Shown one piece after another: positions 9,287 to 30,194 of a DNA stretch of 48,981 nt (position 1 is the stretch's first letter; every line of letters starts with the position of its first letter). The stretch is from positions 1-48,981 of the IMG/VR virus record IMGVR_UViG_3300045971_000856, one strand, 5' to 3'. Position numbers and translations under genes: made by a program. The DNA comes from a virus. Below the pieces are notes generated by a model. The model saw only the letters and a program-made list of their open reading frames with translations, did no database searches and was not told the origin of the DNA.

Positions 9287-9322
9287 TAAAATTGCACCTA
9301 TTTTATAGGTTATGTTGTGACA
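9287..9322 (-). promoter_or_regulatory. Late promoter before the tape measure unit
   Basis: On the minus strand TGTCACA (9316-9322) is followed after exactly 21 bp by CAATTTTA (9287-9294), a variant of the Bacteroidetes TAnnTTTG -7 box. The tape measure start codon lies about 17 bp further on. The same arrangement with identical spacing occurs at four other late units. The motif immediately follows the T-run of the terminator of the antirepressor islet. Confidence 0.7.
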
Positions 9323-9323
9323 T

Positions 9324-9350
9324 AAAAAAACCCCGTGAGTACGGGGCTTT
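9324..9350 (-). terminator. Rho-independent terminator of the antirepressor islet
   Basis: CCCCGT (9331-9336), a GAGT loop and ACGGGG (9341-9346) form the stem. Seven A residues on the plus strand at 9324-9330 give a T-run in the leftward transcript. It ends the P22_AR_N transcript and separates it from the late promoter that begins at once downstream. Confidence 0.85.
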
Positions 9351-9361
9351 GGGTGGTATTT

Positions 9362-9715
9362 TTAGTTTTTAGTTATATGATTACAAATGTCGAGATAGCA
9401 AATATTTTTGTATTTAATGAGTTCCTCACGTGCATCCTCCTTTATGTTTTTTTCGCATATTGTAAAAAGCCATCCTAAAACATATTTTACTGGCAAACAA
9501 AGCATTTTATATTTTTTATTATCTGCAGACAATGCTTTTATAAGTTTATATTTTTTTAATAAAATAGGATCTTCTTTAATTTTATCAAACTGAGCCTTAT
9601 AATTTATTCCTAAAGCTGTACATATTGGTTTTATCGGGAGATATTCAATTCCAAATTCATCTATTACTGAAAAAATCCCTTGATTATTTATTGTTGTAAC
9701 TAATTTTGAATTCAT
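9362..9715 (-). CDS. Antirepressor, P22_AR N-terminal domain family
   Basis: The segment running from PIKPICTALGINYKAQFDKI through KYKMLCLPVKYVLGWLFTI to EDAREELIKYK follows the P22_AR_N antirepressor domain closely and fills the whole protein (about 117 residues). Proteins of this family bind a phage repressor and can trigger induction or change immunity. A longer frame reaches 9760, but a hairpin (9739-9756) lies in that extension, so the internal ATG at 9715 is preferred. The gene follows a KilA-N gene; terminators bracket the pair. No C-terminal DNA-binding domain is attached, so it may act with its neighbour. Confidence 0.8.
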   Translation of the reverse strand: MNSKLVTTINNQGIFSVIDEFGIEYLPIKPICTALGINYKAQFDKIKEDPILLKKYKLIKALSADNKKYKMLCLPVKYVLGWLFTICEKNIKEDAREELIKYKNICYLDICNHITKN

Positions 9716-9738
9716 GTCTTTAATTTTTTGGTGTGAGG

Positions 9739-9756
9739 CGAGGACATACATCCTCG
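9739..9756 (-). terminator. Hairpin between the two antirepressor genes
   Basis: CGAGGA (9739-9744) and TCCTCG (9751-9756) form a perfect 6-bp stem with a 6-base loop between the KilA-N stop codon and the preferred start of the P22_AR_N gene. No T-run follows, so it may be an attenuator or RNA-processing site rather than a true terminator. Confidence 0.4.
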
Positions 9757-9771
9757 ACAAGATTCTTCTAT

Positions 9772-10311
9772 TTAATTAAATTCCATTTTGAATTGATTAG
9801 AAAATTGTGCCATTGCTTTTTTCTTTTCTTTCTCGATTACTTTTAATTCTTCAAGATTATCCAAAAGAGAAATTGCTGTTTGGTCGCCTGTCTCACGAAC
9901 TTTTTTTATCAGGTCAGCAATTTGTTGTTTTTTAATTTCAGCTTCTGAAATTTTAGTTCCTACAACCTTTTGGCTTCCAAAAAGTAAATTATCGAGTGTG
10001 TCGAATATCCAAACTTCAAATTTAACATCTAACCAAGTTGCAAATTTTAAAGCCAATCTTCTTTCGAAATAGATACCCATGTGACCGCGATTATCTATTA
10101 TTTTTAAATCTGAATGGACGCTTTTTAGCGTCTGTTCAACTTCAAAAATATAATCTTTTGTTGATTGATTTGCTAAAAAATCTTTTGTTCGTTTTCCAAA
10201 TGCTTTTGCCATTTCGGTTGCATTAACCATTACATTTTTTTCACATCCAAAAAGGAAGTGAATTTCGGTGTCTTGATAGATGAACTCAAGTGCTTTTGAT
10301 TCGTTTTTCAT
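9772..10311 (-). CDS. KilA-N domain protein (antirepressor-like)
   Basis: This 179-residue protein carries a KilA-N domain at about residues 10-115. The signature VNATEMAKAFGKRTKDFLAN is followed by RGHMGIYFERRLALKFATWL and FEVWIFDTL. The C-terminal 60 residues are Lys/Glu-rich and probably coiled coil. KilA-N proteins of phages bind DNA and often act as antirepressors. Its promoter has host-type spacing, not the phage late element, so it could be expressed from the prophage. It probably works with the P22_AR_N protein encoded just downstream. Confidence 0.85.
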   Translation of the reverse strand: MKNESKALEFIYQDTEIHFLFGCEKNVMVNATEMAKAFGKRTKDFLANQSTKDYIFEVEQTLKSVHSDLKIIDNRGHMGIYFERRLALKFATWLDVKFEVWIFDTLDNLLFGSQKVVGTKISEAEIKKQQIADLIKKVRETGDQTAISLLDNLEELKVIEKEKKKAMAQFSNQFKMEFN

Positions 10312-10342
10312 AATAATTATTTTTTTAATAAGTTATTTAATA

Positions 10343-10372
10343 CAAATATATATGTAAATAATTGATAATCAA
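10343..10372 (-). promoter_or_regulatory. Host-type promoter of the antirepressor islet
   Basis: On the minus strand TTG (10370-10372) lies 19 bp before TATATTTG (10343-10350), a perfect match to the Bacteroidetes TAnnTTTG -7 box with normal -33/-7 spacing. The KilA-N start codon is 31 bp downstream. No TGTCACA element is present, in contrast to the late units. Confidence 0.65.
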
Positions 10373-10401
10373 TACATTAAATTAAAAATTAACATAAATA
10401 A

Positions 10402-10430
10402 ATAAAAAAGCCCCAAATGAATGAGGCTTA
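10402..10430 (-). terminator. Rho-independent terminator after the chaperone-position genes
   Basis: AAGCCCC (10408-10414) pairs with GAGGCTT (10423-10429) with one G-U pair around an 8-base loop. The A-rich plus strand at 10402-10409 gives the leftward transcript a T-run. It separates the upstream tail genes from the KilA-N islet. Confidence 0.75.
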
Positions 10431-10460
10431 AAGTGGCATTTGTGGTATTTGCTTCTGGAA

Positions 10461-10862
10461 TTATTCTGCTATTTCAAAAATTGATATTTCATGTTTTGTG
10501 GTAGCAATATTATCATCATCGATTAGAGTAAGCTCGTTACGGTATGATTTCCATAATGAACCTGCATCTACTATGGTTGCATACTCAGTAAGGTAATCCT
10601 TTGTATTTCGATACAACTCATCGCACTGGGTTTGGGTAATCAATGTTGCGATGTCGATTTCACCTTTTAGGTAATGGAGAAAGGCTTGCCTATCGGCATA
10701 CAGAATCTTACCTGTAGTGGTCAACTGTATTTTTAGTGGATCGTAATTACTAAAAGCGGGTGAATCCCAAACAAGGTTCATGGCTTCCTTGAATGATTTG
10801 TCTTTGATAGATAATCTTATGCCCTTGCCATAGAATACTTTTACATTTACCACGCTAGACAT
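10461..10862 (-). CDS. Unknown protein in tail-chaperone position
   Basis: This 133-residue soluble protein has no recognised domain. It begins with a beta-rich segment (MSSVVNVKVFYGKGIRLS) and continues with helical, acidic sequence. It overlaps the preceding gene by 8 bp. Two small overlapping genes upstream of a tape measure gene are classically tail assembly chaperones (lambda gpG/gpGT arrangement), but here the antirepressor islet intervenes and no programmed frameshift signal was identified. The assignment as a tail chaperone is positional only. Confidence 0.5.
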   Translation of the reverse strand: MSSVVNVKVFYGKGIRLSIKDKSFKEAMNLVWDSPAFSNYDPLKIQLTTTGKILYADRQAFLHYLKGEIDIATLITQTQCDELYRNTKDYLTEYATIVDAGSLWKSYRNELTLIDDDNIATTKHEISIFEIAE

Positions 10863-11148
10863 TTTTTAAGCATTTTTGTAGTTCGCGATATTCGGTAACT
10901 GCTGTACGAAACTCTTCTCCGGTAAAAGGCTGTAGGTTTTCGGCTAAGCATTTCAAAATACTTATGGCATTGATACACTCTTTTCTAAGAGTTAGATCAT
11001 CCATGTGTTCGGTTTCCAATTCGAGGTTGAAAATTAATTGAAAAGTGGCTGGCATTTGTTGTACTTCTTCGGGAGTAATACTCCATAGGAAGTCTGCCAT
11101 TGCTGGCATTACATCAGTGTGTGATGTTTTTACATTTTCTTTTAGCAT
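10855..11148 (-). CDS. Unknown small protein in tail-chaperone position
   Basis: About 97 residues, largely helical and acidic (for example PEEVQQMPATFQLIFNLELE), with no recognised domain. A GTG start at 11169 is possible, but the ATG at 11148 (MLKENVKTS) is preferred. It is the first gene after a structured, roughly 150-base leader and overlaps the next gene by 8 bp. Position before the tape measure gene suggests a tail assembly chaperone; this is inference. Confidence 0.5.
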   Translation of the reverse strand: MLKENVKTSHTDVMPAMADFLWSITPEEVQQMPATFQLIFNLELETEHMDDLTLRKECINAISILKCLAENLQPFTGEEFRTAVTEYRELQKCLKNV

Positions 11149-11171
11149 AATCGAAAATATTAGATACACGA

Positions 11172-11307
11172 AATCCTCGCTTTAGATGTGCTAAAATACC
11201 CTTAACGGATAGATTTCCCTTCGTTTCCTAAGGGACATCATTGCGAGGATTCGCTTATGTTAACTTTAAAAAAGTTTTTGTGGATTGCTCCGTTAAGTAT
11301 TTTAGCA
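11172..11307 (-). promoter_or_regulatory. Structured leader with overlapping inverted repeats
   Basis: Three inverted repeats interleave: AATCCTCGC (11172-11180) with GCGAGGATT (11243-11251); an 18-20 base pair of arms at 11190-11209 and 11289-11306 that match except for a two-base insertion; and CCCTT (11217-11221) with AAGGG (11230-11234). The first two overlap without nesting, so they could not both form as simple hairpins. A -7 box TATATTTG lies at 11319-11326 on the minus strand, which would place all of this in the 5' leader of the chaperone-position genes. Confidence 0.5.
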
Positions 11308-11338
11308 GAGCAAACGTACAAATATAAATTGAATGCAC

Positions 11339-11370
11339 AAAAAAAAAGATGTGTATTTGCACATCTTTAT
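11339..11370 (-). terminator. Rho-independent terminator of the lipoprotein islet
   Basis: AAAGATGTG (11345-11353) and CACATCTTT (11360-11368) form a perfect 9-bp stem with a 6-base loop. Nine A residues at 11339-11347 give a strong T-run on the leftward transcript. Confidence 0.88.
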
Positions 11371-11387
11371 ATTTAATGAATAAAATT

Positions 11388-11603
11388 CTATTTTTTTAAG
11401 TTAAATAAAACAAAGGCGGTTAAGAAGCCACCAATTAACGTGAAATAGAACCAAAATTGAAGATTTAGTTTAATTCGAGTGTTGCTTTTTTCAATTTCAG
11501 TTAATAACCGAGTCTGTTTTTCTTGAAGTTCACGATCTGTGAGTTTCTCAATACTTTCATAAAAATTTTTTGAGTTATTATCTTTGTAATAAATTGGATT
11601 CAT
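11388..11603 (-). CDS. Small membrane protein with coiled coil
   Basis: 71 residues. The first 45 are charged and helical (KLTDRELQEKQTRLLTEIEK), probably a coiled coil. They are followed by one hydrophobic helix (FWFYFTLIGGFLTAFVLFNL) ending in two lysines. No signal peptide is present; a C-terminal anchor in the inner membrane is likely. It is the second gene of the two-gene lipoprotein islet, bracketed by terminators. The function is not recognised; superinfection exclusion is one possibility for such islets but there is no direct evidence. Confidence 0.65.
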   Translation of the reverse strand: MNPIYYKDNNSKNFYESIEKLTDRELQEKQTRLLTEIEKSNTRIKLNLQFWFYFTLIGGFLTAFVLFNLKK

Positions 11604-11622
11604 ATGTTATAGTTTATGGTTA

Positions 11623-12324
11623 TTATTTATACTCTTCTGATTGAATTTTAATTAAGTCCCAATTATCCATATCTACCCAATTTCCTCCCTTGAAACCTAA
11701 AGTAACTTTATAGATAAATTCTTTTTCAACACCATATGAATTCTTAGCACTTACTTTTCTTAAAACGGTATAAGTTCCATCTGAGTTTTTATCGTTTGAA
11801 CAATCAAACATTGAAAAATCTGCAGTAGATGGGTTTTGTAGATCTTTTTTTATAAAATCTTCTGAGATGATACAAGGGTTTGCTGAATCATCGGAATTTG
11901 TATAGGATGATGAATTTGAATAAGATTCGTCCTTTTGTATAGGTCTTGCATCGCAAACTTTAGGACCATACATAAAAAGTAAATCTTCAAAATATGGTAT
12001 TTTATGATACTTTTTCATGTATTGTTTCAATTCAGTTCCTTGTAATTTTAATCCTTTTTGATATACTTCACAAAAGGATTCTTTTTTAAATAATCCTGAC
12101 TGTATTGTAGATTTGAATTCTTTAAACTGAGATTCAGTAAAATCAGCATTTTCTTTAAATCCATTCTCTTTTAAAAATTGTTGCTGAGGAGTTAAAGGCT
12201 TTTCGTCAACAATAATTTCAGTGGTATCAACAGCAATAGTTTCTTCACTTGTTAAGTCTTGGCTTTCTTGATTTTTACAAGAAACAATACTTAGGGTAAT
12301 GAATAACAGAATAATTTTTTTCAT
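11623..12324 (-). CDS. Predicted prophage-encoded lipoprotein
   Basis: The N-terminus MKKIILLFITLSIVSC is a lipoprotein signal peptide with cleavage before C16. An acidic linker follows. The C-terminal 75 residues (from about 155: IKKDLQNPSTADFSMF, then KVSAKNSYGVEKEFIYKVTLGF) resemble a widespread extracytoplasmic domain with the pattern LksPsTAdFp...NsfG. Two internal cysteines (about 83 and 124) could pair. The gene has a -7-like box (TATATTTA, 12348-12355) and terminators on both sides, so it can be expressed apart from the late genes. A lysogenic-conversion function at the cell surface is plausible but unproven. Confidence 0.75.
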   Translation of the reverse strand: MKKIILLFITLSIVSCKNQESQDLTSEETIAVDTTEIIVDEKPLTPQQQFLKENGFKENADFTESQFKEFKSTIQSGLFKKESFCEVYQKGLKLQGTELKQYMKKYHKIPYFEDLLFMYGPKVCDARPIQKDESYSNSSSYTNSDDSANPCIISEDFIKKDLQNPSTADFSMFDCSNDKNSDGTYTVLRKVSAKNSYGVEKEFIYKVTLGFKGGNWVDMDNWDLIKIQSEEYK

Positions 12325-12356
12325 AATTAAATTTTTTAGTTAAGTTGTAAATATAA

Positions 12357-12386
12357 GAAAATCCCTCTTTACGGGAGGGATTTTCT
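12357..12386. terminator. Bidirectional terminator hairpin after the neck genes
   Basis: AAAATCCCTC (12358-12367) and GAGGGATTTT (12375-12384) form a perfect 10-bp stem with a 7-base loop. T-runs are available in both directions. It starts 3 bp from the stop codon of the leftward morphogenesis gene and isolates the lipoprotein islet downstream. Confidence 0.85.
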
Positions 12387-12764
12387 TTAATCTTCTAAAT
12401 TTCTTAACTCTTCCTTGATGGCATTGGTAAATCCAAAATGCAACTCCTTGATGATGTTGTTGTAATGGCCCCAAATAATACGGTTGTGTATAGGGTGTGA
12501 TTTCTTTCGGGTTTTGCCTTTTTTGGAAGTTCGCATTTTCATATCGACAAATCGATGTTTCTTGAGGTGGGTGTAATCCAATCCGTTTTCGGTAACGGTA
12601 AAGCCACGCCCTGAGTACCAATCGTTATTCTCAAAACCACGACTTGACATATATTTTCGCTGTGCCTGGTCAATGTCTTTGGCGCTATCCTGCATCACTC
12701 TGCGTATGAAACGCCCTTGGAGGATTTGTTCTGAAAGGTTTTCGCGGGATTGGAGTAGACTCAT
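12387..12764 (-). CDS. Putative virion morphogenesis/neck protein
   Basis: 125 residues, very basic, with no membrane segment. The sequence contains SSRGFENNDWYSGRGFTVTEN and a Lys/Arg-rich stretch (KMRTSKKGKTRKKSHPIHNR). It is the last gene of the portal/neck unit, where head-tail joining or tail completion proteins are expected. The start overlaps the stop codon of the small HTH gene by 4 bp (ATGA), so the two are translationally coupled. No family is recognised with confidence. Confidence 0.55.
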   Translation of the reverse strand: MSLLQSRENLSEQILQGRFIRRVMQDSAKDIDQAQRKYMSSRGFENNDWYSGRGFTVTENGLDYTHLKKHRFVDMKMRTSKKGKTRKKSHPIHNRIIWGHYNNIIKELHFGFTNAIKEELRNLED

Positions 12765-12949
12765 GATTCTGTGACTTTAATTTTATTCAACTGATGCAAA
12801 ACATTTAACATGTCGCCAATATTTGGTTTTGCACCACGGCCTTTACGCCAATTGTAAATTTTGTCTTCGGAAATGTCATTTAATTTTTTGTAAATCGCTT
12901 TCTCTTCAATTACTGAATGAAACAATACTTCGATTTGTTCTGTTGTCAT
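12761..12949 (-). CDS. Small HTH-like DNA-binding protein
   Basis: 62 residues, all of it a compact helical domain: EQIEVLFHSVIEEKAIYKKL, then DISEDKIYNWRKGRGAKPNIGDMLNVLHQL. The stretch SEDKIYNWRKGRG looks like a recognition-helix segment similar to small Cro/XRE-like proteins, although the fold cannot be proved by eye. A perfect palindrome (12959-12980) lies just upstream of its start codon and a related one lies before the rightward SymE islet, so it may be an autoregulated repressor. It sits inside the neck gene cluster, an unusual place for a regulator. Confidence 0.6.
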   Translation of the reverse strand: MTTEQIEVLFHSVIEEKAIYKKLNDISEDKIYNWRKGRGAKPNIGDMLNVLHQLNKIKVTES

Positions 12950-12958
12950 GGCTCTTTG

Positions 12959-12980
12959 TTTTCCGTAAAGATACGGAAAA
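12959..12980. promoter_or_regulatory. Palindromic operator TTTTCCGTA-N4-TACGGAAAA
   Basis: Two perfect 9-base arms (12959-12967 and 12972-12980) are separated by four bases. The palindrome lies between the stop codon of the preceding leftward gene and the start of the small HTH gene, 10 bp before that start. On the minus strand it contains TATCTTTA, close to a -7 box. The same core occurs at 17723-17740. Confidence 0.65.
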
Positions 12981-12981
12981 A

Positions 12982-13458
12982 CTACGGAGTATCAAAATTT
13001 AATTCGACCATCCAACCGTTGCATTGATCCATTTTCCAGACTGGACTTACCCGTATCGAATTTTCGTCTAGCCACGAAAGGAAATTGCAAAAAACACCTT
13101 CACGATTGCTTTTATCTTCGATAAGCTTATCTACCAAAGCCTGTGCTTTGGCTTGGGTTTGCACAAATATATTAAGATAACCATCACGGTCATGCTCGGA
13201 ATAATCGGTTTTGTCGAGTATGAAAAACTGCAGCATATTTTCCCACTTGGAGCGGTCTTCTTCGCCTTTCATTTGAAACTCGGGCATTACTGCGATAAGA
13301 AAGGTATTATCCTCTTCAACTCGCTCTTTGAGAAGTTTGGATAACTCGCTATTATCGATTATCATATCGGTGTAATTGAATAGCTTTTTGCCGTTTTCGT
13401 CTAGTAGTTGTGCGCACACTTCGGCTTGATATTCTCGTAATCTATTTAGTGGTAGCAT
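12982..13458 (-). CDS. Unknown structural-module protein
   Basis: 158 residues, acidic, mixed alpha/beta, no membrane segment. No family is recognised. It overlaps the preceding gene by 17 bp and ends beside the palindromic operator. Its place between portal and tape measure suggests a neck, connector or tail-completion role; this is positional inference only. The C-terminal part contains VSPVWKMDQCNGWMVELNF. Confidence 0.5.
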   Translation of the reverse strand: MLPLNRLREYQAEVCAQLLDENGKKLFNYTDMIIDNSELSKLLKERVEEDNTFLIAVMPEFQMKGEEDRSKWENMLQFFILDKTDYSEHDRDGYLNIFVQTQAKAQALVDKLIEDKSNREGVFCNFLSWLDENSIRVSPVWKMDQCNGWMVELNFDTP

Positions 13459-14356: not shown

Positions 14357-14668
14357 TTATGCGGATAGCTTTAAGTTACGGTATAATTTTATATCAAGTT
14401 GCTTCATTTGATCGCCATACTTGATTAATACTTCCTCTCTTATTTCGGCATCGCTTTTGTACCATGGTGGAATGAACTTAGAAGATGTATTGATCGCAAT
14501 GAATTCTTTAACCATTTGCAGAATTTTTCCTTTTAGGATGATTCTATCGACTTCACGGTCTTCGATGGTTTTGTACAATTTTTTGTTGATTTTTTTGAAC
14601 TTCATTATTGTTTTGAAATTCCATAGGTAATTAAAGAAAAGGGCAATTTTGTTTAATAGTGACTTCAT
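14357..14668 (-). CDS. Small basic protein of the neck unit, unknown
   Basis: 103 residues, Lys-rich and helical. The N-terminal 20 residues (LLNKIALFFNYLWNFKTIM) are amphipathic rather than a clear membrane helix. The C-terminal half contains FIPPWYKSDAEIREEVLIKYGDQ cut by charged turns. Immediately adjacent to the next gene (no gap). Function unknown; probably structural or assembly-related from context. Confidence 0.5.
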   Translation of the reverse strand: MKSLLNKIALFFNYLWNFKTIMKFKKINKKLYKTIEDREVDRIILKGKILQMVKEFIAINTSSKFIPPWYKSDAEIREEVLIKYGDQMKQLDIKLYRNLKLSA

Positions 14669-14696
14669 TAGTTAAGGTTTTGGATGGATATATTTA

Positions 14697-15689
14697 TTAT
14701 GCTGATATGTATTTATCTCCAAATATTTGTTCTGGGATTACATTAATAGTTTCTTCAATGGTTGGTGATGGTTCTAAAAGTTTTTCTATTTCTAGAATTA
14801 CCCTGTCAAAATCCAAAGTCCAAGCTTGTGCTGCTTCTTGTGTTTCATTTTTCAAGGCTGGTTTTGCTCCTCTAGTAGTCGCTCTATCACTGGTTACATG
14901 CTGTAAAACACCTTCGGGATACAATTGAACAGATAATCGTGGCATAGCCCAAGCAAATGAATACGCTACCGATGCTTTTTGAATTAAGCGAATCAACTCT
15001 AAATCATTGGCATCGGTTATAGGCGTATTCTCTTTTAGCGCCTGTTTCAATGCGTTTAATTTTTCAGAACCTACACGAGGTCTGATTTCATATTGCTCGC
15101 AATCCGAAATGCCAGGGGCTAATTTTATTAATAACAATCTTGATTTAAGCGGAAATACTTTGTCGAAATCGGAAACTGTTCTGATGAATAGATCATGCGT
15201 TGCTTTAAAAGCATCGCTAGTAGTCCAGATGGTGTATAAGGTTGTAGAAATTTCAACCTCTATTTTTGAACGGTCAAGGAATTTGATTAAATCATCCAAT
15301 GCACGGTAATAGCGTTTTTCCATTGCTGCATTGTCTTTGTCAAGTAACCACTCGAACGCTTGTTTTTCGTTTTCATCTTGGCGCATTTTACGACCATTAT
15401 TGGTGTGTGACAAATCATTTGTAGGAGAGAACAATCGATAAGCGTTTACGGCTATCGGATAACGAATGGCATAAATAAAATCTTTGTCTTCTTCTGCGAT
15501 TGTTCCATTATTAAAGGCTTCAACTGCTTTTTTATATACTTTTTCTCCAACCAAATCTATCACATCATTGGTGGCAGTGATTAGGTCGGGGATAAGATTT
15601 TTTAACTTCAAATCGGCATCGATGAAACCCATTAACTCTTTGAGTTCGGTATTGCCTGTAGTTCCTGTGGTTGTAAATAGTAGTTTCAT
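14697..15689 (-). CDS. Putative head-tail connector protein
   Basis: 330 residues, helical, following the portal gene with a 1-bp gap. It resembles the uncharacterised proteins that sit directly after portal genes in Bacteroidetes phages. The N-terminus (MKLLFTTTGTTGNTELKELMGF) and the motif YAIRYPIAVNAYRLFSPTND are notable. The position immediately after portal in many tailed phages belongs to adaptor or neck proteins, which is the basis of the call. No catalytic motif is seen. Confidence 0.55.
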   Translation of the reverse strand: MKLLFTTTGTTGNTELKELMGFIDADLKLKNLIPDLITATNDVIDLVGEKVYKKAVEAFNNGTIAEEDKDFIYAIRYPIAVNAYRLFSPTNDLSHTNNGRKMRQDENEKQAFEWLLDKDNAAMEKRYYRALDDLIKFLDRSKIEVEISTTLYTIWTTSDAFKATHDLFIRTVSDFDKVFPLKSRLLLIKLAPGISDCEQYEIRPRVGSEKLNALKQALKENTPITDANDLELIRLIQKASVAYSFAWAMPRLSVQLYPEGVLQHVTSDRATTRGAKPALKNETQEAAQAWTLDFDRVILEIEKLLEPSPTIEETINVIPEQIFGDKYISA

Positions 15690-15690
15690 C

Positions 15691-17064
15691 TTACTTATTT
15701 ATTATTCGGTCTTTTGGTGTAACGGCTTCTTCTTTTTCGGGCTTTTCGTGGTAGAAACCAAGTTTTAGCCCTTTGTTCGGAAAATTGACTTTGAGCGCAT
15801 AGTTTATGGCTTTCATAATTATTAGTTCGGGAATATCAATACCGGTCTGAAGAAAGGTTTTAAGCGCGTATATTTGTTCGGAACCTGAATCACTTTTTCC
15901 ACTCTCGGAAACGTTACCCAACGCAGAGTGCAGATTTAGACCCGCAGACAATGCATGATCGGCACGCTCTGATATTGATATTTGAGCTTCAACAAAGTCT
16001 TTGATGTTCTGGTCTATCACTTTGATTTCCCAACCGTGCTCAATAAGGTTTGTTCCTTCTACTGTAAAACTTTTGGTAGTATGGAGATACTTACCTGTAT
16101 TTTCATCTCCTGATAGTACTACCGATATCTTTTCAAGGAATTGTTTTTGGTACTCCAATAGCATTGAGGGTTTATAAATCTGTCCTTTTTGTACGCAACT
16201 GGATTCTATTTCATTTTTCTTTTTATCCCAAAATGCTTGAGGCGAAACAATATGGTACTTTAGGTTAATAGAGTTTTTGGATAAAGCCTTGAATATTAAC
16301 GGCACCGCAGTAGAGCGATTCAGCCATTCGAGAGAACCGTATAAATCGGGTACTGTATAATAATCTGTACAAAAGCTGTACATATTGGAATATAGTATGG
16401 CATTGGCATTGGCAAAAGGATTTTGGAAATCGAATAAGGCATATACATTAAAATCTGTCAAGGCTTGAACATTGCTAAACGACCAGTCTGATGTGATAGC
16501 GTGAGTAGCTTTACGGCTTTTGTTATTCTTAGCTGTGCCCAGTCGTGTTCTATCGCAATACTGATGCACTAACTTAGATATAAACGGAATACCAATGCGA
16601 GAACCTTTATTCAATTCAAACTTAGTAAATACTCCCTCTATGTGTTGGTAATCTGTACAAGCTTTTAGTAAGTAATCTTCATGCTCCCAAGACTCTAGCC
16701 ACTCCTGTACTTCAATATCTTCTTGAGGTATTCTAATCCGTTTATAACCTTCTGAGGTCTCTACTATTTTTTCTTTATATAATACAGGACCAGTACCCCA
16801 AATCAATTGAGTCTTCTTCTTTAATATACCAGGAGCAATGTAGTTAGTCTGTACTGTTTGTTTAATGATATCCGGTAGATCATTGTTGCTACCATAAGGA
16901 TGTACCAAGTAATCACCAATGAAACTACACTGACTATTCCAATCAAGGTTATTGTTGTCTGTCTTGAATTTATAGAAGTCTCTAGGTGTCTCACTCACTT
17001 GGTATGTGAATGCTACATCTGGTGTATCTATAATGGCATCTCTACCTATGTACTCTATATTCAT
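15691..17064 (-). CDS. Phage portal protein
   Basis: A 457-residue protein with features of Bacteroidetes phage portals: an N-terminal wing (NDLPDIIKQTVQTNYIAPGILKKK), a central region with GTGPVLYKEK, and a C-terminal helical domain with QISISERADHALSAGLNLH and SGKSDSGSEQIYALKTFL. Portal forms the DNA-entry channel of the capsid. The frame extends upstream to 17121, but the ATG at 17064 lies 2 bp after the stop codon of the preceding gene and is preferred. It follows that small gene in the portal/neck unit and precedes a putative connector. Confidence 0.75.
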   Translation of the reverse strand: MNIEYIGRDAIIDTPDVAFTYQVSETPRDFYKFKTDNNNLDWNSQCSFIGDYLVHPYGSNNDLPDIIKQTVQTNYIAPGILKKKTQLIWGTGPVLYKEKIVETSEGYKRIRIPQEDIEVQEWLESWEHEDYLLKACTDYQHIEGVFTKFELNKGSRIGIPFISKLVHQYCDRTRLGTAKNNKSRKATHAITSDWSFSNVQALTDFNVYALFDFQNPFANANAILYSNMYSFCTDYYTVPDLYGSLEWLNRSTAVPLIFKALSKNSINLKYHIVSPQAFWDKKKNEIESSCVQKGQIYKPSMLLEYQKQFLEKISVVLSGDENTGKYLHTTKSFTVEGTNLIEHGWEIKVIDQNIKDFVEAQISISERADHALSAGLNLHSALGNVSESGKSDSGSEQIYALKTFLQTGIDIPELIIMKAINYALKVNFPNKGLKLGFYHEKPEKEEAVTPKDRIINK

Positions 17065-17066
17065 AA

Positions 17067-17345
17067 CTATGGTTTTATCGTGTATCCGTTGAACTTCATT
17101 AGCAATGGGAGGTAGAACCAACGGCTCTTATCGTTACCATTCACATACCCTATCAAGATGTCAGCCTTATCACTCTGGTCATCACGGTAGCCCTTCCTTA
17201 GTTGAGCGTTTGCGACATCTTTGAACCCATCGCTCGTACCATTGGTCGCATTGAATGATAAGAAACTGAACGTGAACGGCACGCCTAACTCGGTTAGTCT
17301 TCGCATTCTTTTCAATGCATCGTACAGCTTGATGGTTTGGGACAT
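17067..17345 (-). CDS. Unknown small protein preceding the portal gene
   Basis: 92 residues, basic, no membrane segment, no recognised family. It begins MSQTIKLYDALKRMRRLTEL and contains FKDVANAQLRKGYR and a C-terminal aromatic patch (SRWFYLPLLMKFNGY). It is the first gene of the portal/neck transcription unit, 55 bp after a TGTCACA element, and ends 2 bp before the preferred portal start. It is probably co-translated with portal and may be a virion or assembly factor. Confidence 0.55.
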   Translation of the reverse strand: MSQTIKLYDALKRMRRLTELGVPFTFSFLSFNATNGTSDGFKDVANAQLRKGYRDDQSDKADILIGYVNGNDKSRWFYLPLLMKFNGYTIKP

Positions 17346-17370
17346 GTAATTACCTATTCTTAATGTTATA

Positions 17371-17406
17371 CAATAGTACTATTACCATAGCACTAATGGT
17401 GTGACA
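17371..17406 (-). promoter_or_regulatory. Late promoter of the portal/neck unit
   Basis: TGTCACA (17400-17406, minus strand), then exactly 21 bp, then TACTATTG (17371-17378), one base from the TAnnTTTG -7 consensus. The first start codon is about 26 bp further on. Spacing is identical to the other four late elements. Confidence 0.7.
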
Positions 17407-17722: not shown

Positions 17723-17753
17723 TTCCGTATAAATACGGAATTTTGTATCTTTA
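17723..17753 (+). promoter_or_regulatory. Operator and promoter of the SymE islet
   Basis: A palindrome TTCCGTA (17723-17729) N4 TACGGAA (17734-17740) is followed by TATCTTTA (17746-17753), close to the Bacteroidetes -7 box. The start codon of the first islet gene is at 17783. The palindrome shares its 7-base arms and 4-base spacing with the one at 12959-12980 and sits where a repressor would block the -33 region. Confidence 0.65.
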
Positions 17754-19416: not shown

Positions 19417-21120
19417 TTAATCCCCCACACTCGGGTCCATCCCAGTATATTGAGAATGTGTGTTTACCATACCTACAAAAGCACGACGATAAATCAAATA
19501 CTTAAACGCATCCGAGAAGTTCGTAGAAAACATTGGTCTTTGAGGTAGAGGCAAACTCTCTGTAGATTTATCCTTATACAAAGTACGAGAACCAGTAGTG
19601 GTAACAGTTTTCAATTTTATTTTTGTCAGTTCTAAGGAACTTTTTAAACATTTACACTGAAACTTATCAATCTTAAGTTTTAATAGCCCCTCGGCAGTTT
19701 CTCCCATCATTGCTTTGGCAAATGCAAACTCTTGATCTTGGTAAATTGTTCCCTGCCCTTCAGACATTAAATTCACAGTCCAACCTGTTGACGAACCGTT
19801 TTCCCATTCAATGGCATTTTTTACCGCATTTGCCCAGTCGCGTTTGGTCGATGCGTTTTGGTTCCCCGAGCGATCATAGTACAAATCAATTATTTTTACT
19901 TTATGATGCTTGAAAAATTCACGGAACTTTTGTCCCATTTGCAATTCATTCTCCGGAGCCAATGTATAGAATTCTTTTAGGCAATATAAGTACTTTCCTC
20001 TAGGCTGTGCCGTCACCAAACTACACATATCGCCAAAATCCATACCGCCTTCCAGTTTCGCATTGTGGTCTATATACCGCAAAGCCAAACTACTTTCCTC
20101 TATTGTTTCCGTCAAAGTAAATTTGTCATAGTAGGAAGTGATCACACCATCATCATAAAAATGATGTTCGCCAAGATTACCGTAGAATTTCTCTCCTTTT
20201 TTTATTTCACTTTTAAATCCTAAAATTGCAGATTTAAATTCCTCAATACCCAAAACAGTATAAGTATCTTTAAAAAAACCTTCTTGCAAAACATCGGCAT
20301 TCACCAAAGAGGAAACCATATAGAAAAATGTAGAATCCTTTCGAACCCGAACCCACTTTTCAGTCCATCTTGCAATTTGTTTTAAAAGTAATTCGGCTTT
20401 TTTGGCATCCCTGTCAATTTGAGCATTATACAATTCACATTTTATATCATTCAAAATTTTACCACATTCCAAAGCAGCTTTTATTTGATCAAGATTCATA
20501 TCTTTTTCGCGCTTAAGCATCCAATCAAAATCTCCTTGTAAAATATTTGGATTATCAGATAAGAATGTTCTACCACGATAATAAACTGAATGTTGAAAAC
20601 TAGCATGTTCTCCACGAATTGCAGGCTCTAATTTTTTAAGTTTGGCAAAATTCAACAATCTCCCTTCATCTCCGTACATATGTTGAAATGAGTTACCTGC
20701 TAATCCGCTAGGCTGATCTAAACTTCCTAAAATCAATCTGACCCCTATCTTAGTAGAAATGGTATGTTTAAATGAATCGGTAGGTTTATAACAGTTTTTG
20801 AAGTGAGAGGGCGGGCGAGTATCTGTAACGTAATCCCTTCCGTGAATCCATCCTTTACGCGCCCAACCTTCAAAAAGAGTAGGTACAATGTTTTTAGCTG
20901 CATTCACATAAGTATCCGAAACAACAACCTGCTGACTATGTTGCATATCATACATAACATTCATAGAACGTTGTGCGAAAATATCAGTTTTAGCAGCACC
21001 ACGACCCGCTAGTAAGATTAAGTCTTTTGGAGCAATCAACTCACATAGCATATTTAACCAATTTACATAAACCGGATTAACAAACGGATCTTTGCTACTT
21101 ACGTGGGTTTTCCGACTCAT
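19417..21120 (-). CDS. terL: Terminase large subunit
   Basis: 567 residues. The ATPase half has a Walker A variant AGRGAAKT (38-45) and a Walker B ending in D151-E152 (HMYGDEG). The nuclease half has the expected acidic residues: D361 (GGMDFGD), D416 (LYYDRSG) and D537 (FSDAFKY). It packages phage DNA into proheads through the portal and cuts concatemers. The order small subunit, large subunit agrees with the two upstream genes, and it overlaps the preceding gene by 26 bp. The motifs are complete. Confidence 0.93.
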   Translation of the reverse strand: MSRKTHVSSKDPFVNPVYVNWLNMLCELIAPKDLILLAGRGAAKTDIFAQRSMNVMYDMQHSQQVVVSDTYVNAAKNIVPTLFEGWARKGWIHGRDYVTDTRPPSHFKNCYKPTDSFKHTISTKIGVRLILGSLDQPSGLAGNSFQHMYGDEGRLLNFAKLKKLEPAIRGEHASFQHSVYYRGRTFLSDNPNILQGDFDWMLKREKDMNLDQIKAALECGKILNDIKCELYNAQIDRDAKKAELLLKQIARWTEKWVRVRKDSTFFYMVSSLVNADVLQEGFFKDTYTVLGIEEFKSAILGFKSEIKKGEKFYGNLGEHHFYDDGVITSYYDKFTLTETIEESSLALRYIDHNAKLEGGMDFGDMCSLVTAQPRGKYLYCLKEFYTLAPENELQMGQKFREFFKHHKVKIIDLYYDRSGNQNASTKRDWANAVKNAIEWENGSSTGWTVNLMSEGQGTIYQDQEFAFAKAMMGETAEGLLKLKIDKFQCKCLKSSLELTKIKLKTVTTTGSRTLYKDKSTESLPLPQRPMFSTNFSDAFKYLIYRRAFVGMVNTHSQYTGMDPSVGD

Positions 21121-24155: not shown

Positions 24156-24179
24156 GGCTTTTTAGTTTTTGAATGATTG

Positions 24180-24215
24180 TAAAATTGGTAATTACTTAGT
24201 AAAAATGCTGTGACA
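24180..24215 (-). promoter_or_regulatory. Late promoter of the packaging unit
   Basis: TGTCACA (24209-24215, minus strand), 21 bp, then CAATTTTA (24180-24187), identical to the box before the tape measure gene. The start codon is 24 bp further. The motif directly follows the T-run of the capsid-unit terminator. Confidence 0.7.
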
Positions 24216-24216
24216 T

Positions 24217-24248
24217 GAAAAAAGCCACTGCAATTGCAGTGGCTTTTC
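24217..24248 (-). terminator. Rho-independent terminator of the capsid unit
   Basis: AAAAGCCACTGC (24220-24231), loop AATT, GCAGTGGCTTTT (24236-24247): a perfect 12-bp stem. A residues at 24218-24223 give the T-run for the leftward transcript. The next late promoter begins 2 bp beyond it. Confidence 0.9.
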
Positions 24249-24275
24249 ATCCAAACTAACTAACCAAAAAAATAC

Positions 24276-25097: not shown

Positions 25098-25111
25098 GAT
25101 TTATATGTTTA

Positions 25112-27277
25112 CTAAGTTATACTTCTGCCTGTTTCAACCCATACAGCATTGACACAAGTCAATTGTAAGTAGTCGTTACTGTCTCCCAATGTTGCAGCAG
25201 ATGCTACATCAATTTTACCAACTACATCAGCGAAAGTAACATCTACTCCAACAGCATCTGTTCCATAAATCTTAATAGTTTTTCCTTCCACACCATTAAT
25301 GATGTTAGTGATTGCAGTTGTAACCGCACCTGTAAATTTAAAAACAGAACCTCCTTTAGAATCAATTACTCCAGTGGCAAATGAAATATCAGTCGTTGCA
25401 GCCACATCTGGCGCACTAGTTCTACTCAATTCCTTGAATGTTCCATCTTCTTTGGCAAACAATACAATTGTTCCTCCAGTAGATAAATCAAAGTTTGCTG
25501 TCAAATCTAATCCTGCGCCATCAATCAAGTTTTTAGCAGCTGCCAATCCAGTGTTCCCTTTTATTCTGATAACAGAACCTTTGGTAGCACCTTCGATAGC
25601 TGTGATGTTTGTTTTCCAACTAGCATCCACTTCGATATTTTGGAAAGTGATTTTCAAAATTCCAGATACATCATCAAATGCAGGAGCAAAAATTGAGTTG
25701 TCAAATACCGGAACGTTGTTAGACCATACTTTTTGGATTTCAAACGCTCTTGGGTCTCCCGCGGCAAGTTTAGTTCCAACTAGTATAAAACGGATTCCCA
25801 AACGATAATCTGCAAAAATATCAGTACCTCTTTTGTTATGGGTAATTGTGAATTTACCTTTTTCAGAAGCGTTGTATTCTAATACCTGAACATTCTTAGA
25901 TTGAGTAATTCCAATAAAATCTGTTTGTGTTTGATCTACCAACTCTTGAAAAATAAAGTTTGGATAATCAATAGGTGAATTTGATTGGTAATCAGACTTG
26001 CTTTGGTCAGATGCATTGTTTACTAATTGTGGGCGCAATTCTCCCGCACGTTTCAAGTAAGCTTTTAACCATTTAGATGACAATTGAATCTCAAGACCTT
26101 GCTCTTTTCTTTCAATTTCTGGCATCATCTTAATCATCGTTTCGATGTAGTCAACGATGTTGGCTTCTGTTGGTGCTCCAATATCAAATGCACGGTATTT
26201 TTTGGCTACATCTCTGTAGTAATACCATAAGTAACGCAAACCATTTTGAGAGTTCACATTAGCCCCAGGCATACCGTCACCATCTGGAGACTGAACGAAG
26301 ATTCCATTGATTTGAGCAATACGATCATCCAACATTTGTTGTTTGATTAATTCACTCAAAAGGAATCCAATAAAGGACATTTTCCAAGGATGTGAACCAT
26401 CAGCTTTATTGTATTGACGAATCCAAGTATTCTCAATTTCTTGCAATTCGAAACCATCAAATGTAATATCGATTTTCTTACGATACACTTGACCTTGCTC
26501 TGATACAATTTTGAAAAGATTTTTAGGAGACCAGCCTTTGGCACGTCCTTGAACAATTTCACCAGTGATAATTCCACCGTTTGAAACCCTGTCAAGTACA
26601 CCGCTACGAGTTCCCCACTGAGTTGGTAAACCACGGAAATCATTAAACAATGATTCAAGAACACCGTTGTTCTCTTCAACAAAGTGCTCTAAATCCGATT
26701 GCAATAATGGAACAACACCGCTTTTATTAAAGTCAGTTGCTTGAATTCCACCATCTCTCAAACGAGCATTCCAATCTCTACCGCCCTCAAAGGCATCATA
26801 AGATTGACCAGTACCAAACAAGTGTGTTGCAGAATGTGTCATAGTTGCTTTTCCTCCTGGGATTACTGCCAATGGTTTATCACCTTCTGGCTCGTTGATT
26901 AATTTTTGAATTGTGGAGGCCATTTCTTTTTGCTTTTCTCCAAGTGCTTTTAGAGTCGCCAGTGTTCCCGCCTCTCCTTTTTCATCCTTAGCGATATTCT
27001 TAATTTCCTCCTCAGTCAAACTTGATTCTTTTACCAAAGCATCAATTTCGTCCTGTATGGCTTTCAAATCGAGATTTTCTTGAGCCATGTTCTTGATCTC
27101 GGAATCAATTCCGCTAATAGCTTCTGCAGCTAATTTTTCGCCTAATGCATCGACAATCTTTTGTCGTTGTGCAGCATCCAGATTCAGGCTTTTGTTTTCG
27201 CCATCAATCGGGAGTTCTTTGACCGATAACAGTGCTGCGAACATCGCAACTGTTTTTGCCATAAATTTCCATTTCAT
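25112..27277 (-). CDS. Major capsid protein with C-terminal decoration domains
   Basis: 721 residues, long for a capsid protein. Residues 1-140 are helical and Glu/Lys-rich, like a fused scaffolding (delta) domain. Residues of about 160-545 are the likely HK97-fold shell part (region from DFNKSGVVPLLQSDLEHFVE to RAFEIQKVWSNNVPVFD). Residues of about 555-720 hold two related beta-rich units (NITAIEGATKGSVIRI and AITNIINGVEGKTIKI), probably displayed on the capsid surface. It follows the S49 protease by 27 bp, as expected if the protease removes the N-terminal domain during maturation. Confidence 0.82.
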   Translation of the reverse strand: MKWKFMAKTVAMFAALLSVKELPIDGENKSLNLDAAQRQKIVDALGEKLAAEAISGIDSEIKNMAQENLDLKAIQDEIDALVKESSLTEEEIKNIAKDEKGEAGTLATLKALGEKQKEMASTIQKLINEPEGDKPLAVIPGGKATMTHSATHLFGTGQSYDAFEGGRDWNARLRDGGIQATDFNKSGVVPLLQSDLEHFVEENNGVLESLFNDFRGLPTQWGTRSGVLDRVSNGGIITGEIVQGRAKGWSPKNLFKIVSEQGQVYRKKIDITFDGFELQEIENTWIRQYNKADGSHPWKMSFIGFLLSELIKQQMLDDRIAQINGIFVQSPDGDGMPGANVNSQNGLRYLWYYYRDVAKKYRAFDIGAPTEANIVDYIETMIKMMPEIERKEQGLEIQLSSKWLKAYLKRAGELRPQLVNNASDQSKSDYQSNSPIDYPNFIFQELVDQTQTDFIGITQSKNVQVLEYNASEKGKFTITHNKRGTDIFADYRLGIRFILVGTKLAAGDPRAFEIQKVWSNNVPVFDNSIFAPAFDDVSGILKITFQNIEVDASWKTNITAIEGATKGSVIRIKGNTGLAAAKNLIDGAGLDLTANFDLSTGGTIVLFAKEDGTFKELSRTSAPDVAATTDISFATGVIDSKGGSVFKFTGAVTTAITNIINGVEGKTIKIYGTDAVGVDVTFADVVGKIDVASAATLGDSNDYLQLTCVNAVWVETGRSIT

Positions 27278-27304
27278 AGGAGTTTTGTTTTAAGGGGTTA
27301 AAAA

Positions 27305-28177
27305 TTAATTATAGTGTTTCGTTTCACTCATTATATGAAGCCTTTGAACGGCTTGGTCTCGGCTACCAATTGCATCAATCATTCCATACTCAAGGGCTTT
27401 GTCTGCTCCAAAAGTTTTTCCTGTCAATACTCCAACTTCTTCTTTTAAGTTAGGATTTGAAGCTCTCACTGCGTTTTGAAATTGTATCGCCAAAGGAGAA
27501 AGATGTTCTGCATTTATCATATCATACTTTCCATCTAGCGCCAATCTCCAAGCGAGGTTTTTATGCTCACTTTCTTTTGGATAGATATCATGAAATACAT
27601 ATCCAAGAGTTTCCAAAAATTTTCTATTATCGGCAAACGATGTGGTAACACCCACAGAACCGAAAGAAGCCGATACGTTATTGTCTGCCATTTTATAATC
27701 TGCAATGGCGCACATTGCCCAATAATGCAAAGAGCAACATTGATCGGCAATAGCAACAACTGGCTTTGTTTTATCTTTTGCAAATTGCAGAAAGGGACCT
27801 ATTGCCGAAACTCCACCTCCTGGTCCATCTTCGTTAAAAACAGTTCCAATAATATTCGGATTTCTATCTGCCAGACGTAAAGCATTTACAATTTCATCGG
27901 CACCATACGTGCACATATCACCGTACTTCATTACGGGGCCTACCATATCAATAATAGCAACCGAACCTTTTGGCGCATTTATCAAACCATTGGCATCGGG
28001 AGCAACACGTTTTCCATTATGATCTACAACATTCATAAGCGAATGTGTTTTCTCGGAAATGTCTACATGTTGGCCTGTAATTATTTTATGTGCTATTGGA
28101 GCAAATGCAGAAATACCTTCAAAGGACATTAGCCAATCCGAACGCATTAAATCCATTAATAATCTATCTACTCTCAT
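27305..28177 (-). CDS. S49 (SppA/ClpP-like) prohead protease
   Basis: 290 residues. The oxyanion-hole segment EDGPGGGVSA (about 116-125) corresponds to the SPGG motif of S49 peptidases. The probable nucleophile is S149 in CCSLHYWAMCA, and the FGSVGV segment at about 172 with downstream lysine (about 186) fits the SppA dyad. Phage S49 proteases cleave scaffold and capsid N-termini. It is the first gene of the capsid unit and has its own late promoter. Confidence 0.85.
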   Translation of the reverse strand: MRVDRLLMDLMRSDWLMSFEGISAFAPIAHKIITGQHVDISEKTHSLMNVVDHNGKRVAPDANGLINAPKGSVAIIDMVGPVMKYGDMCTYGADEIVNALRLADRNPNIIGTVFNEDGPGGGVSAIGPFLQFAKDKTKPVVAIADQCCSLHYWAMCAIADYKMADNNVSASFGSVGVTTSFADNRKFLETLGYVFHDIYPKESEHKNLAWRLALDGKYDMINAEHLSPLAIQFQNAVRASNPNLKEEVGVLTGKTFGADKALEYGMIDAIGSRDQAVQRLHIMSETKHYN

Positions 28178-28193
28178 CGTGTAATTTTTTTTA

Positions 28194-28229
28194 CGAAGTT
28201 CATTTTATTATTTCAAAACCTTTGTGACA
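28194..28229 (-). promoter_or_regulatory. Late promoter of the capsid unit
   Basis: TGTCACA (28223-28229, minus strand), 21 bp, then GAACTTCG (28194-28201), the weakest -7 match of the five. The protease start codon is 16 bp further. No hairpin separates it from the lysis unit, so the lysis transcript may read through. Confidence 0.6.
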
Positions 28230-28238
28230 CGTTATTTT

Positions 28239-28421
28239 TTACTCACTTAAGTTGTTTTCAACTGTTCGAATCAGTTCTTTTTTTAGCTTCAAAATTTCGG
28301 CTTCGAGTTTTCCAAATTGGGTAAACATTTTTTCTTCCACTTCTGCCAGTGATTCAATTTGAGCAAAAAGAAATGCTTTTTTAAATTTTAAATCCCGTAG
28401 TTTTATTTCTAATTCGTTCAT
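28239..28421 (-). CDS. Small coiled-coil protein of the lysis unit
   Basis: 60 residues, entirely heptad-like (LEIKLRDLKFKKAFLFAQIE, then EVEEKMFTQFGKLEAEILKL). No membrane segment or signal. It overlaps the preceding gene by 4 bp and is the last gene of the lysis unit. Function unknown. Confidence 0.55.
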   Translation of the reverse strand: MNELEIKLRDLKFKKAFLFAQIESLAEVEEKMFTQFGKLEAEILKLKKELIRTVENNLSE

Positions 28422-29086
28422 CGTTTAACATTTAGAATTGAAAAATTATAACCCACCCAAATAGTCTGATTGGTATCAAATGAAGCACTCAGAATGTTTC
28501 CTTTTCTGTTTTGGAACATTATATTCGCTTTGACCTTAAAATCGTTTAGAGCCGTGTTATTACCAACTTCCATTCCTGCCAAAATTCTGAAAGCAGTTTC
28601 TTTGGCTTGCACCGGAACTTCCAATTTTCTTTCCTTGATCGTGTAGGTCGGAGAAAATCCTTTGACTTCGCCCTGAGCGATTCCATTTATATTTATTTTG
28701 ATAGCATCATCCTCGAATATAGAATTGAACTTATTCAACTGAATCGCTTTTGAATATTGCAATTTCTTGATGCTGTCATTGGCTTTGGCAAAATCCTGTT
28801 TTAGTTTTTCGCTTTCAGCAATCATTTTATCAATTTCATTTTCGTAAAAGGCAGCTTCCCCTTTTTGCACTTCTGCTTCATTCTTTGAATTCATGACAAT
28901 TGGAGTATGTTTTGGAACTTTCGAATTAAAACTTCCTTTTACTTCTGGTACCGTAATTTTTGCAGAAGCTACCGCCTTTTCTTTTCTCGAATAGCCATTG
29001 AACCATAAGAATACGAATAGCAATATCCATCCCAGATATTTGAAAAACTCTTTGAAACCTGAAGAATAAGGATTGATTTGTATCAT
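28418..29086 (-). CDS. Membrane-anchored coiled-coil protein of the lysis unit
   Basis: 222 residues. One N-terminal membrane helix (FFKYLGWILLFVFLWFNGY) precedes a coiled coil (ENEIDKMIAESEKLKQDFAK) and a beta-rich C-terminal domain. The topology is inner-membrane anchor with a periplasmic body, as in i-spanin-like proteins or phage membrane regulators. It lies 3 bp after the endolysin gene. A spanin-like role is inference. Confidence 0.55.
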   Translation of the reverse strand: MIQINPYSSGFKEFFKYLGWILLFVFLWFNGYSRKEKAVASAKITVPEVKGSFNSKVPKHTPIVMNSKNEAEVQKGEAAFYENEIDKMIAESEKLKQDFAKANDSIKKLQYSKAIQLNKFNSIFEDDAIKININGIAQGEVKGFSPTYTIKERKLEVPVQAKETAFRILAGMEVGNNTALNDFKVKANIMFQNRKGNILSASFDTNQTIWVGYNFSILNVKR

Positions 29087-29089
29087 GAT

Positions 29090-29614
29090 TTAAGCTTCGT
29101 TTATAGAAAGTGCACCAGTGCCTTCCAATTTTATTACTCGAATGTTATCTGGTTGTGCAATCTTCCACGGAGTTCTGCGAATAGCGACACAACGTTCTTT
29201 TCGAATCCGGGTAATACACACCATATCCGATTGATTTCCACCCAATACATGGTATGCTGTTCTGTCTTCACCAACATAAATACCCACGTGCCCGCCACCA
29301 TCACGAACAAATACCAAGATATCCCCAAGCATAGCAATAGCCTCTTTCTTTCCAAAGTTTGCCCAATTTCTTGCCCACAAGGGTTTGTCAACCACATCAA
29401 AACCCGCTTTGTGGACCACATAGGCCACATACAAACCGCACCACGGAATATCATCTTTGCGATAGTCTTTTTCCAGTCCCAAAGTTTCTGCCCATTTTAG
29501 TATCTCGATATTATCGCCCGCACCTGGTACTTCTTTAATCCCTAATAATTTTAGAGCTTCAATTAGAATTTTTGGAGACTTCTCGGCTTTTAGCCATTTA
29601 TAAATATTAGCCAT
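29090..29614 (-). CDS. Endolysin, CHAP/NlpC-like cysteine peptidase
   Basis: 174 residues. The core matches the TIGR02594-type phage peptidase: C59 in DIPWCGLYVAYV, H109 in GGGHVGIYVG and N127 in LGGNQSD form a plausible Cys-His-Asn triad. Substrate would be peptidoglycan peptide cross-links. There is no signal peptide, so it needs a holin for release. Small membrane proteins directly upstream (29617-30134) are candidates. Starts 2 bp after the preceding stop codon. Confidence 0.85.
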   Translation of the reverse strand: MANIYKWLKAEKSPKILIEALKLLGIKEVPGAGDNIEILKWAETLGLEKDYRKDDIPWCGLYVAYVVHKAGFDVVDKPLWARNWANFGKKEAIAMLGDILVFVRDGGGHVGIYVGEDRTAYHVLGGNQSDMVCITRIRKERCVAIRRTPWKIAQPDNIRVIKLEGTGALSINEA

Positions 29615-29616
29615 AA

Positions 29617-29820
29617 TTATTTAAGCGTTTCATTGTGAATACTATCCAGTACGATATTGCTTTCTATAGCATTTATAATTCTTTCAATTTTGGCTTCTTT
29701 ACACACGATTTCCTTTCGCTGTTCCAAGACTATTTTTGGAGGATATTCCTTTGGTAATTTTGGCGAAAGCATAAGCGCACTAAATGCTATGATGGCTATA
29801 CAATATAAAGTCGTTTTCAT
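29617..29820 (-). CDS. Small membrane/secreted protein of the lysis unit
   Basis: 67 residues, with an N-terminal hydrophobic helix (TTLYCIAIIAFSALMLSP) that could be a signal anchor. The rest is charged, with a cysteine (IVCKEAKIER). Overlaps the upstream gene by 4 bp. A holin or spanin component is possible from context; nothing is diagnostic. Confidence 0.55.
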   Translation of the reverse strand: MKTTLYCIAIIAFSALMLSPKLPKEYPPKIVLEQRKEIVCKEAKIERIINAIESNIVLDSIHNETLK

Positions 29821-30134
29821 TTGTCTTCTTTTATTTGTTTGATCTCTTTCCTTTGTTGGATAAGTACAACCAAAAGGCTATTAAACTTATCTGTATATAA
29901 TTCCAATTTTGCAGTATATTTTTCCTGTTCTTTGGCACGATTATTATTAACATTATCAATTCTAGCAGAAAGAATTGCATAATTTTCGTTATGTCGTTTA
30001 TCATTATAGTAGGCCATTGTAAACACTATCGAAAGGATAATGATGTAGTTCAATTGTATTCTTTTAATTTGGGGCAATAAGAAGTACCAGTCGAATAACT
30101 TAGGGATTTCCTTGAAAAAGTCTAGTATCTTCAT
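29817..30134 (-). CDS. Holin/spanin candidate with one membrane helix
   Basis: 105 residues. One hydrophobic helix at about residues 27-43 (NYIIILSIVFTMAYY) is followed by a long Lys/Glu coiled coil (RAKEQEKYTAKLELYTDKF). First gene of the lysis unit, 25 bp after the -7 box of its late promoter. The architecture fits an inner-membrane spanin-like or pinholin-like protein, but there is no specific family match. Confidence 0.55.
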   Translation of the reverse strand: MKILDFFKEIPKLFDWYFLLPQIKRIQLNYIIILSIVFTMAYYNDKRHNENYAILSARIDNVNNNRAKEQEKYTAKLELYTDKFNSLLVVLIQQRKEIKQIKEDK

Positions 30135-30158
30135 AGAGCGTATGTTTTTTATTTAAGT

Positions 30159-30194
30159 CAAAAATACTTACCTACTGAATAAAAAGCTGTGACA
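30159..30194 (-). promoter_or_regulatory. Late promoter of the lysis unit
   Basis: TGTCACA (30188-30194, minus strand), 21 bp, then TATTTTTG (30159-30166), a perfect TAnnTTTG match. The motif lies inside the 3' arm of the fibre-unit terminator, so the two signals share DNA. Confidence 0.75.

Follow-up and report, generated by a model that had tools for sequence, protein, structure and literature searches.

Genome organization and late units

The DNA analyzed here (hereafter the window) is an IMG/VR virus record of 48,981 bases, whose head, tail, portal and terminase genes are homologous to those of Duneviridae phages of Flavobacterium and Cellulophaga. More distant homologues of its structural and packaging genes occur in Bacteroides phage BT-TP2 and in Porphyromonas prophages. 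With a homologous terminase, portal, capsid and tape measure, and with the corresponding gene order, the window is, judging from its sequence, a Duneviridae-like phage of flavobacteria. The names given to its late units in the original prediction (tape measure, portal, packaging, protease/capsid and lysis) were borne out by PHROG matches and annotated homologues (Table 1).

An antirepressor/regulator islet (9362-10372) sits between the tape-measure unit and the upstream late genes. The TTG-N19-TATATTTG promoter that had been assigned to it is present at 10343-10372, although the window contains three matches of this kind, a count that does not exceed chance. A weak match to a Tad2-like anti-Thoeris domain was recorded at 42293-42598 (E 6e-4, below the curated cut-off). 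In phage 6H, phosphoadenosine phosphosulfate reductase-like and ParB-like genes are inserted in the packaging unit (L020 21249-22938).

Table 1. Positions of the genes, promoter elements and predicted operators in the window.
Feature	Position	Strand	Basis
Tape measure protein	4998..9269	-	homology
-7 box CAATTTTA, tape-measure unit	9287..9294	-	
TGTCACA, tape-measure unit	9316..9322	-	sequence and relatives
Portal protein	15691..17121	-	Ingeline and Porphyromonas homologues annotated as portal
-7 box TACTATTG, portal unit	17371..17378	-	
TGTCACA, portal unit	17400..17406	-	sequence and relatives
Large terminase	19417..21120	-	homology, including BT-TP2 terminase
-7 box CAATTTTA, packaging unit	24180..24187	-	
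TGTCACA, packaging (terminase) unit	24209..24215	-	sequence and relatives
Head maturation protease, first gene of capsid unit	27305..28177	-	homology
-7 box GAACTTCG, protease/capsid unit	28194..28201	-	
TGTCACA, protease/capsid unit	28223..28229	-	sequence and relatives
Lysozyme/endolysin-like gene, lysis unit	29090..29614	-	homology
-7 box TATTTTTG, lysis unit	30159..30166	-	
TGTCACA, lysis unit, predicted -40 to -34	30188..30194	-	sequence; same site in laban6-1 and relatives
P1, 186 aa, phrog_21888 (unknown function), candidate late activator	30261..30821	-	position, co-occurrence, predicted structure
Putative -7 box TATCTTCG of the operon ending with P1	35060..35067	-	read from sequence
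Predicted operator palindrome TATAC-N6-GTATA, just upstream of the P1-operon -7 box	35076..35091	.	
Second predicted operator palindrome upstream of the P1 operon	35138..35153	.	
Predicted operator palindrome, repressor/early divergent region; 16-mer is the reverse complement of 35076-35091	48420..48435	.	
Second predicted operator palindrome, repressor/early region	48451..48466	.	
CI-like repressor (HTH_3)	48486..48812	+	domain match

A composite element upstream of the five late units

Each of the five late units is preceded by the word TGTCACA, located 52-61 nt upstream of the start codon (5/5), and a TAnnTTTG-like -7 box begins exactly 28 nt after the start of the word at all five sites. 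The five minus-strand positions, the gap of 21 nt and the 8-mers named in the original prediction all proved exact when checked again on the sequence. Two further copies of TGTCACA, at 15406-15412 and 31408-31414, are intragenic and have no box. Copy number was rejected as evidence, with seven copies in the window vs 5.25 expected by chance. When all 7-mers were compared, TGTCACA was the one most concentrated 45-65 nt upstream of gene starts, where five of its seven copies lie (p = 2.6e-9 in a binomial calculation for this 7-mer alone, uncorrected for the number of 7-mers). The signal in the window is the placement of TGTCACA, not its abundance. The boxes had been said to fit the consensus loosely to perfectly, and they match it at 6, 5, 4, 4 and 4 of six bases. 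Because boxes as uneven as these come from a single genome, the fixed spacing between word and box could not be proved from the window alone; the proof comes from the sequences of relatives.

Close to the -7 box or the start codon, the packaging and portal promoters share a further palindromic word (window 24180-24200 and 17345-17360). This word is lineage-dependent, being GTAATTAC in the window and in laban6-1 and GCAATTGC-like in others, and it was seen elsewhere at L017 8710, L038 11302, L050 4108 and L095 13982.

Conservation of the spacing and variation of the word

Phage laban6-1, which is 42-61% identical to the window in the main head and packaging proteins, carries TGTCACA and the box ahead of these same five units, and at no other place where a start codon follows within range. 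When many relatives are taken together, agreement with TAnnTTTG rises to a sharp peak at an offset of 28 nt from the start of the word, with a mean of 4.5 of 6 vs about 1.8. In the same scan, reversed, reverse-complement and one-mismatch control words gave no peak at offset 28. A more stringent filter against similar sites left 62 TGTCACA sites in the relatives that resemble one another only to a limited extent; in 89% of them, a box agreeing with the consensus at 4 or more of 6 bases stands at offset 28, compared with a mean of 4% at other offsets. A profile of 91 sites consists of a strong word and a strong box with almost no information in the spacer. Since flavobacterial start-site maps place the -7 box at -12 to -5 (PMC9723704), the word spans -40 to -34 and thereby occupies part of the -33 place, where none of the 91 sites has TTG. 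Hence, of the features of a sigma-ABfr promoter, TAnnTTTG at -7 is present and TTTG around -33 is absent.

The original prediction had further tied the regulon to the presence of both motif and spacing in relatives that keep the genes, and the relatives were informative on this point. At these same units, TGTCACA is missing from 6H, Ingeline, BT-TP2 and the Porphyromonas phages, but a spacing of 27 or 28 nt is kept there with a lineage-specific word in its place. In 6H and 23T the word is TGTCTTAA, i.e., TGTC[C/T]TAA, at offset 27; all four copies in 6H lie at late units, one of them with the offset off by one. Ingeline has five promoters with TGTCCTTTTAA (the [T/A]GTCCTTT type) at offset 28, and several uncultured relatives use TGT[T/A]ACA or TGATAC[A/T]. 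The [T/A]GTCCTTT word or close variants of it are also found at offset 28 in BT-TP2, the Porphyromonas phages and one faecal phage, and where genes are annotated, words of the GTCCTTT type precede late genes (protease, portal, neck/tape-measure). TGTCACA is therefore, on this comparison of sequences, one dialect of a wider promoter class.

P1 as candidate activator

The gene directly upstream of the first late promoter encodes P1, which matches the phrog_21888 profile over the whole protein. When the genes of the window were compared with the reference phages, only the structural genes, the integrase, the primase and P1 had relatives in essentially all of them, P1 being the sole universal gene not assigned to structure, replication or integration (in BT-TP2 it was detected by profile, not in the gene-by-gene comparison). 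P1 is present in every phage with the element and missing from four control Bacteroidota phages without it; composite sites at the fixed spacing number 3-7 in P1-bearing phages vs 0-1 in these four controls, which lack P1. In laban6-1, 6H, Ingeline and numerous uncultured relatives, its gene immediately precedes the first late promoter; BT-TP2 and the Porphyromonas phages have it two genes ahead of the protease. The AlphaFold model is confident (pLDDT 88) and comprises an alpha/beta N-terminal part, a long helix and two C-terminal helices (SNDTLRQLYYREKK), which look helix-turn-helix-like in this model. Sequence and fold searches of P1 against known DNA-binding families and solved folds gave nothing significant. 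From its position, its co-occurrence with the element and the predicted helix pair, P1 is most likely the activator and the best candidate for this role. Its gene stands at the end of an operon with tail-fibre-like genes and may be structural or accessory as well.

The second of these helices reads LR-L-YYRE in most phages with a TGTnACA word; 6H, Ingeline and others have a different sequence there. A well supported branch of the P1 tree has the GTCCTTT group on one side, and six changes of word are needed on this tree vs seven on the protease tree. Since the distribution of words is accounted for by the protease tree to nearly the same degree, and since some GTCCTTT phages also carry YYR in the second helix, the covariation of helix and word is suggestive only and does not separate co-evolution from common descent.

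The same promoter class could be served by another phage protein, for instance the LuxR-type regulator P2 encoded next to the repressor (47528-48106). Its Ingeline version contains a recognizable GerE helix-turn-helix (1.8e-6), and the annotations of laban6-1 and 6H list it as a transcriptional regulator. However, no P2 turned up in BT-TP2, in the Porphyromonas phages or in the faecal phage L087, phages that all carry the element, and it is not favoured as activator because it is missing from the Bacteroidales phages. Moreover, its putative recognition helix is nearly alike in laban6-1 and 6H, which use TGTCACA and TGTCTTAA, respectively, and its early location fits an early or lysogeny role. 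An activator other than P1 is thus unlikely.

Loci selected by P1 alone and matches in host genomes

P1 was sought in 201 Flavobacteriaceae genomes, which gave seven matches, one of them already known, and in 396 genomes of the phylum, which gave one further match. All seven new host-genome loci selected in this way carry the element at offset 28. Two of them (L095 and L100) had no match to the known words at first, and new variants were read by eye, namely TGTAACA and TGTCCTAT; both stand at offset 28 and both then gave several more sites, TGTCCTAT occurring at six promoter-like places in its locus. A P1 profile built from Bacteroidales phages found no match in 396 genomes, a negative of little weight in a sample without a positive genome for it. 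In one locus (L097, G100:C8:202951-203493), P1 has an in-frame TGA while the late elements are intact, and this prophage may be decaying.

A second alternative is that a host transcription factor reads the word and that the phages have adopted its promoters. Host regulators are often used by phages, and the -7 box is that of the host. However, the words differ among phages of one genus, Flavobacterium (laban6-1 vs 6H), which speaks against a host factor, and strict composite matches are rare in host genomes and fall mostly inside prophages. In a 4.4-Mb host genome, all four lie within the prophage; the counts inside prophages over three host genomes are 4/4, 4/7 and 1/1, and the single strict TGTCACA match of F. 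denitrificans (4.8 Mb) falls in a prophage. Control by a host factor is hence very improbable.

We consider it equally doubtful that an alternative sigma factor, of phage or host, reads word and box together. A fixed spacing of two boxes would also be expected from a sigma factor; however, the downstream box follows the consensus of the primary sigma factor, TAnnTTTG, P1 gave no match to sigma families, and a scan of the early-region proteins gave no Pfam sigma-factor match. Finally, that the word is some other signal near late genes, for example for packaging or transcript processing, would agree with its copies at unit borders, several of them just after terminator-like T runs, but is hardly credible, since dozens of diverged sites keep the same exact distance to a promoter box and each genome has several copies, every one of them oriented with transcription.

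Predicted repressor operators and a proposed regulatory circuit

The palindrome TATAC-N6-GTATA occurs four times in the window vs 0.04 expected, and only in the repressor region and at the P1 operon: two copies lie between the repressor and the early operon and two upstream of the P1 operon. Further imperfect copies were seen at both places (35045-35160 and 48384-48485). A parallel arrangement with another operator is found in laban6-1, where AAAAGTTTTCCTTTTT occurs at 36317 and 42835. In 6H, a similar element is present at both places, as a weak match whose pattern count is not above chance. The P1 operon thus carries the operators of the phage repressor, which implies the order repressor, then activator, then late genes. 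The simplest circuit implied by these sequences leads from the repressor to P1 and from P1 to the late units, with repression of the first step and activation of the second as we infer them.

In Ingeline, the P1 operon itself seems to begin with a late element (L021 22912), and the P1 operons of L097 (1797) and L098 (17158) probably start with one as well. A late element before the P1 operon suggests positive feedback, i.e., self-activation.

Proposed mechanism and significance

From these comparisons, the five sites are, with good confidence, activator-dependent late promoters, with P1 as the most likely activator and the CI-like repressor predicted upstream in the circuit. The host RNA polymerase, carrying the primary sigma factor of Bacteroidota, would read the -7 box (TAnnTTTG, -12 to -5) of promoters in which the usual TTTG at -33 is missing. 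A phage protein would bind the word (TGTCACA here) at -40 to -34 and hold the polymerase there, and once bound it would probably touch sigma region 4, by analogy with T4 MotA at its box. This protein would most likely be P1, with recognition of the word by its C-terminal helix-turn-helix-like part. During lysogeny, the CI-like repressor bound to TATAC-N6-GTATA would keep two operons shut, the early one and the one that ends in P1, and upon induction P1 would be made and would turn on the five late units. The phage-specific late regulon with an activator next to -33, as originally proposed, is supported by the comparative evidence as the best reading, its late timing and activation being what we infer from it.

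On a broader scale, it seems likely that P1 represents an undescribed family of phage late activators, matching no known fold, which is conserved in phages of Flavobacteriales and Bacteroidales and cooperates with the primary sigma factor of Bacteroidota at promoters of one class, with a fixed spacing of 27-28 nt. The word would have changed several times (GTCCTTT, TGTCYTAA, TGTnACA) while the geometry stayed fixed, yielding a natural series of orthogonal activator-promoter pairs. In the literature searched, there was no earlier description of the P1 activator family, of the promoter class and its spread in Bacteroidota phages, or of how phages of this kind time their late genes.

With this element, late operons and prophage activity become predictable from sequence. 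Besides, family phrog_21888 gains a likely function, and the repressor, the activator and the late units are tied into one testable circuit. If P1 is the activator, the varied words in one geometry would serve as orthogonal switches in Flavobacterium and Bacteroides, and they would add a new example in which a phage supplants the upstream half of a promoter.

Comparison with known systems

Small late activators that serve several late operons with the host polymerase are known from phage P2 (Ogr/Delta) and Mu (C). Sites of the P2 type lie at about -55, and Ogr is a zinc protein. The likeness to the window lies in a small activator, here the candidate P1, for several late operons; the P2-type sites are further upstream than the word of the window, and P1 has no match to such families.

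Among the Duneviridae (laban6-1, 6H, Ingeline; PMC8776804), the window agrees in gene order and in its head, packaging, portal and tail homologues, and the literature searched gave no account of a late regulon or activator in these phages. The canonical sigma-ABfr promoter of Bacteroidota has TTTG at -33 and TAnnTTTG at -7 (PMC7366714, PMC9723704). The window matches it in the -7 box and in the place of this box relative to the gene, but instead of TTTG at -33 it has a phage-specific word just upstream, overlapping that place.

Control by a phage activator in place of an upstream promoter element is already known from T4 MotA, whose box is centred at -30, 12 +/- 1 bp from the -10 element (PMC2988021). 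A search for MotA homology of P1 gave no match, and one for an AsiA-like partner gave a single match at chance level (E 0.039). Unlike the MotA box, the word here lies at -40 to -34 and serves late genes in a Bacteroidota host with a different primary sigma factor. As in the T4 middle promoters (MotA/AsiA), the -35/-33 element is replaced by a phage word whose distance from the host -10/-7 box is fixed.
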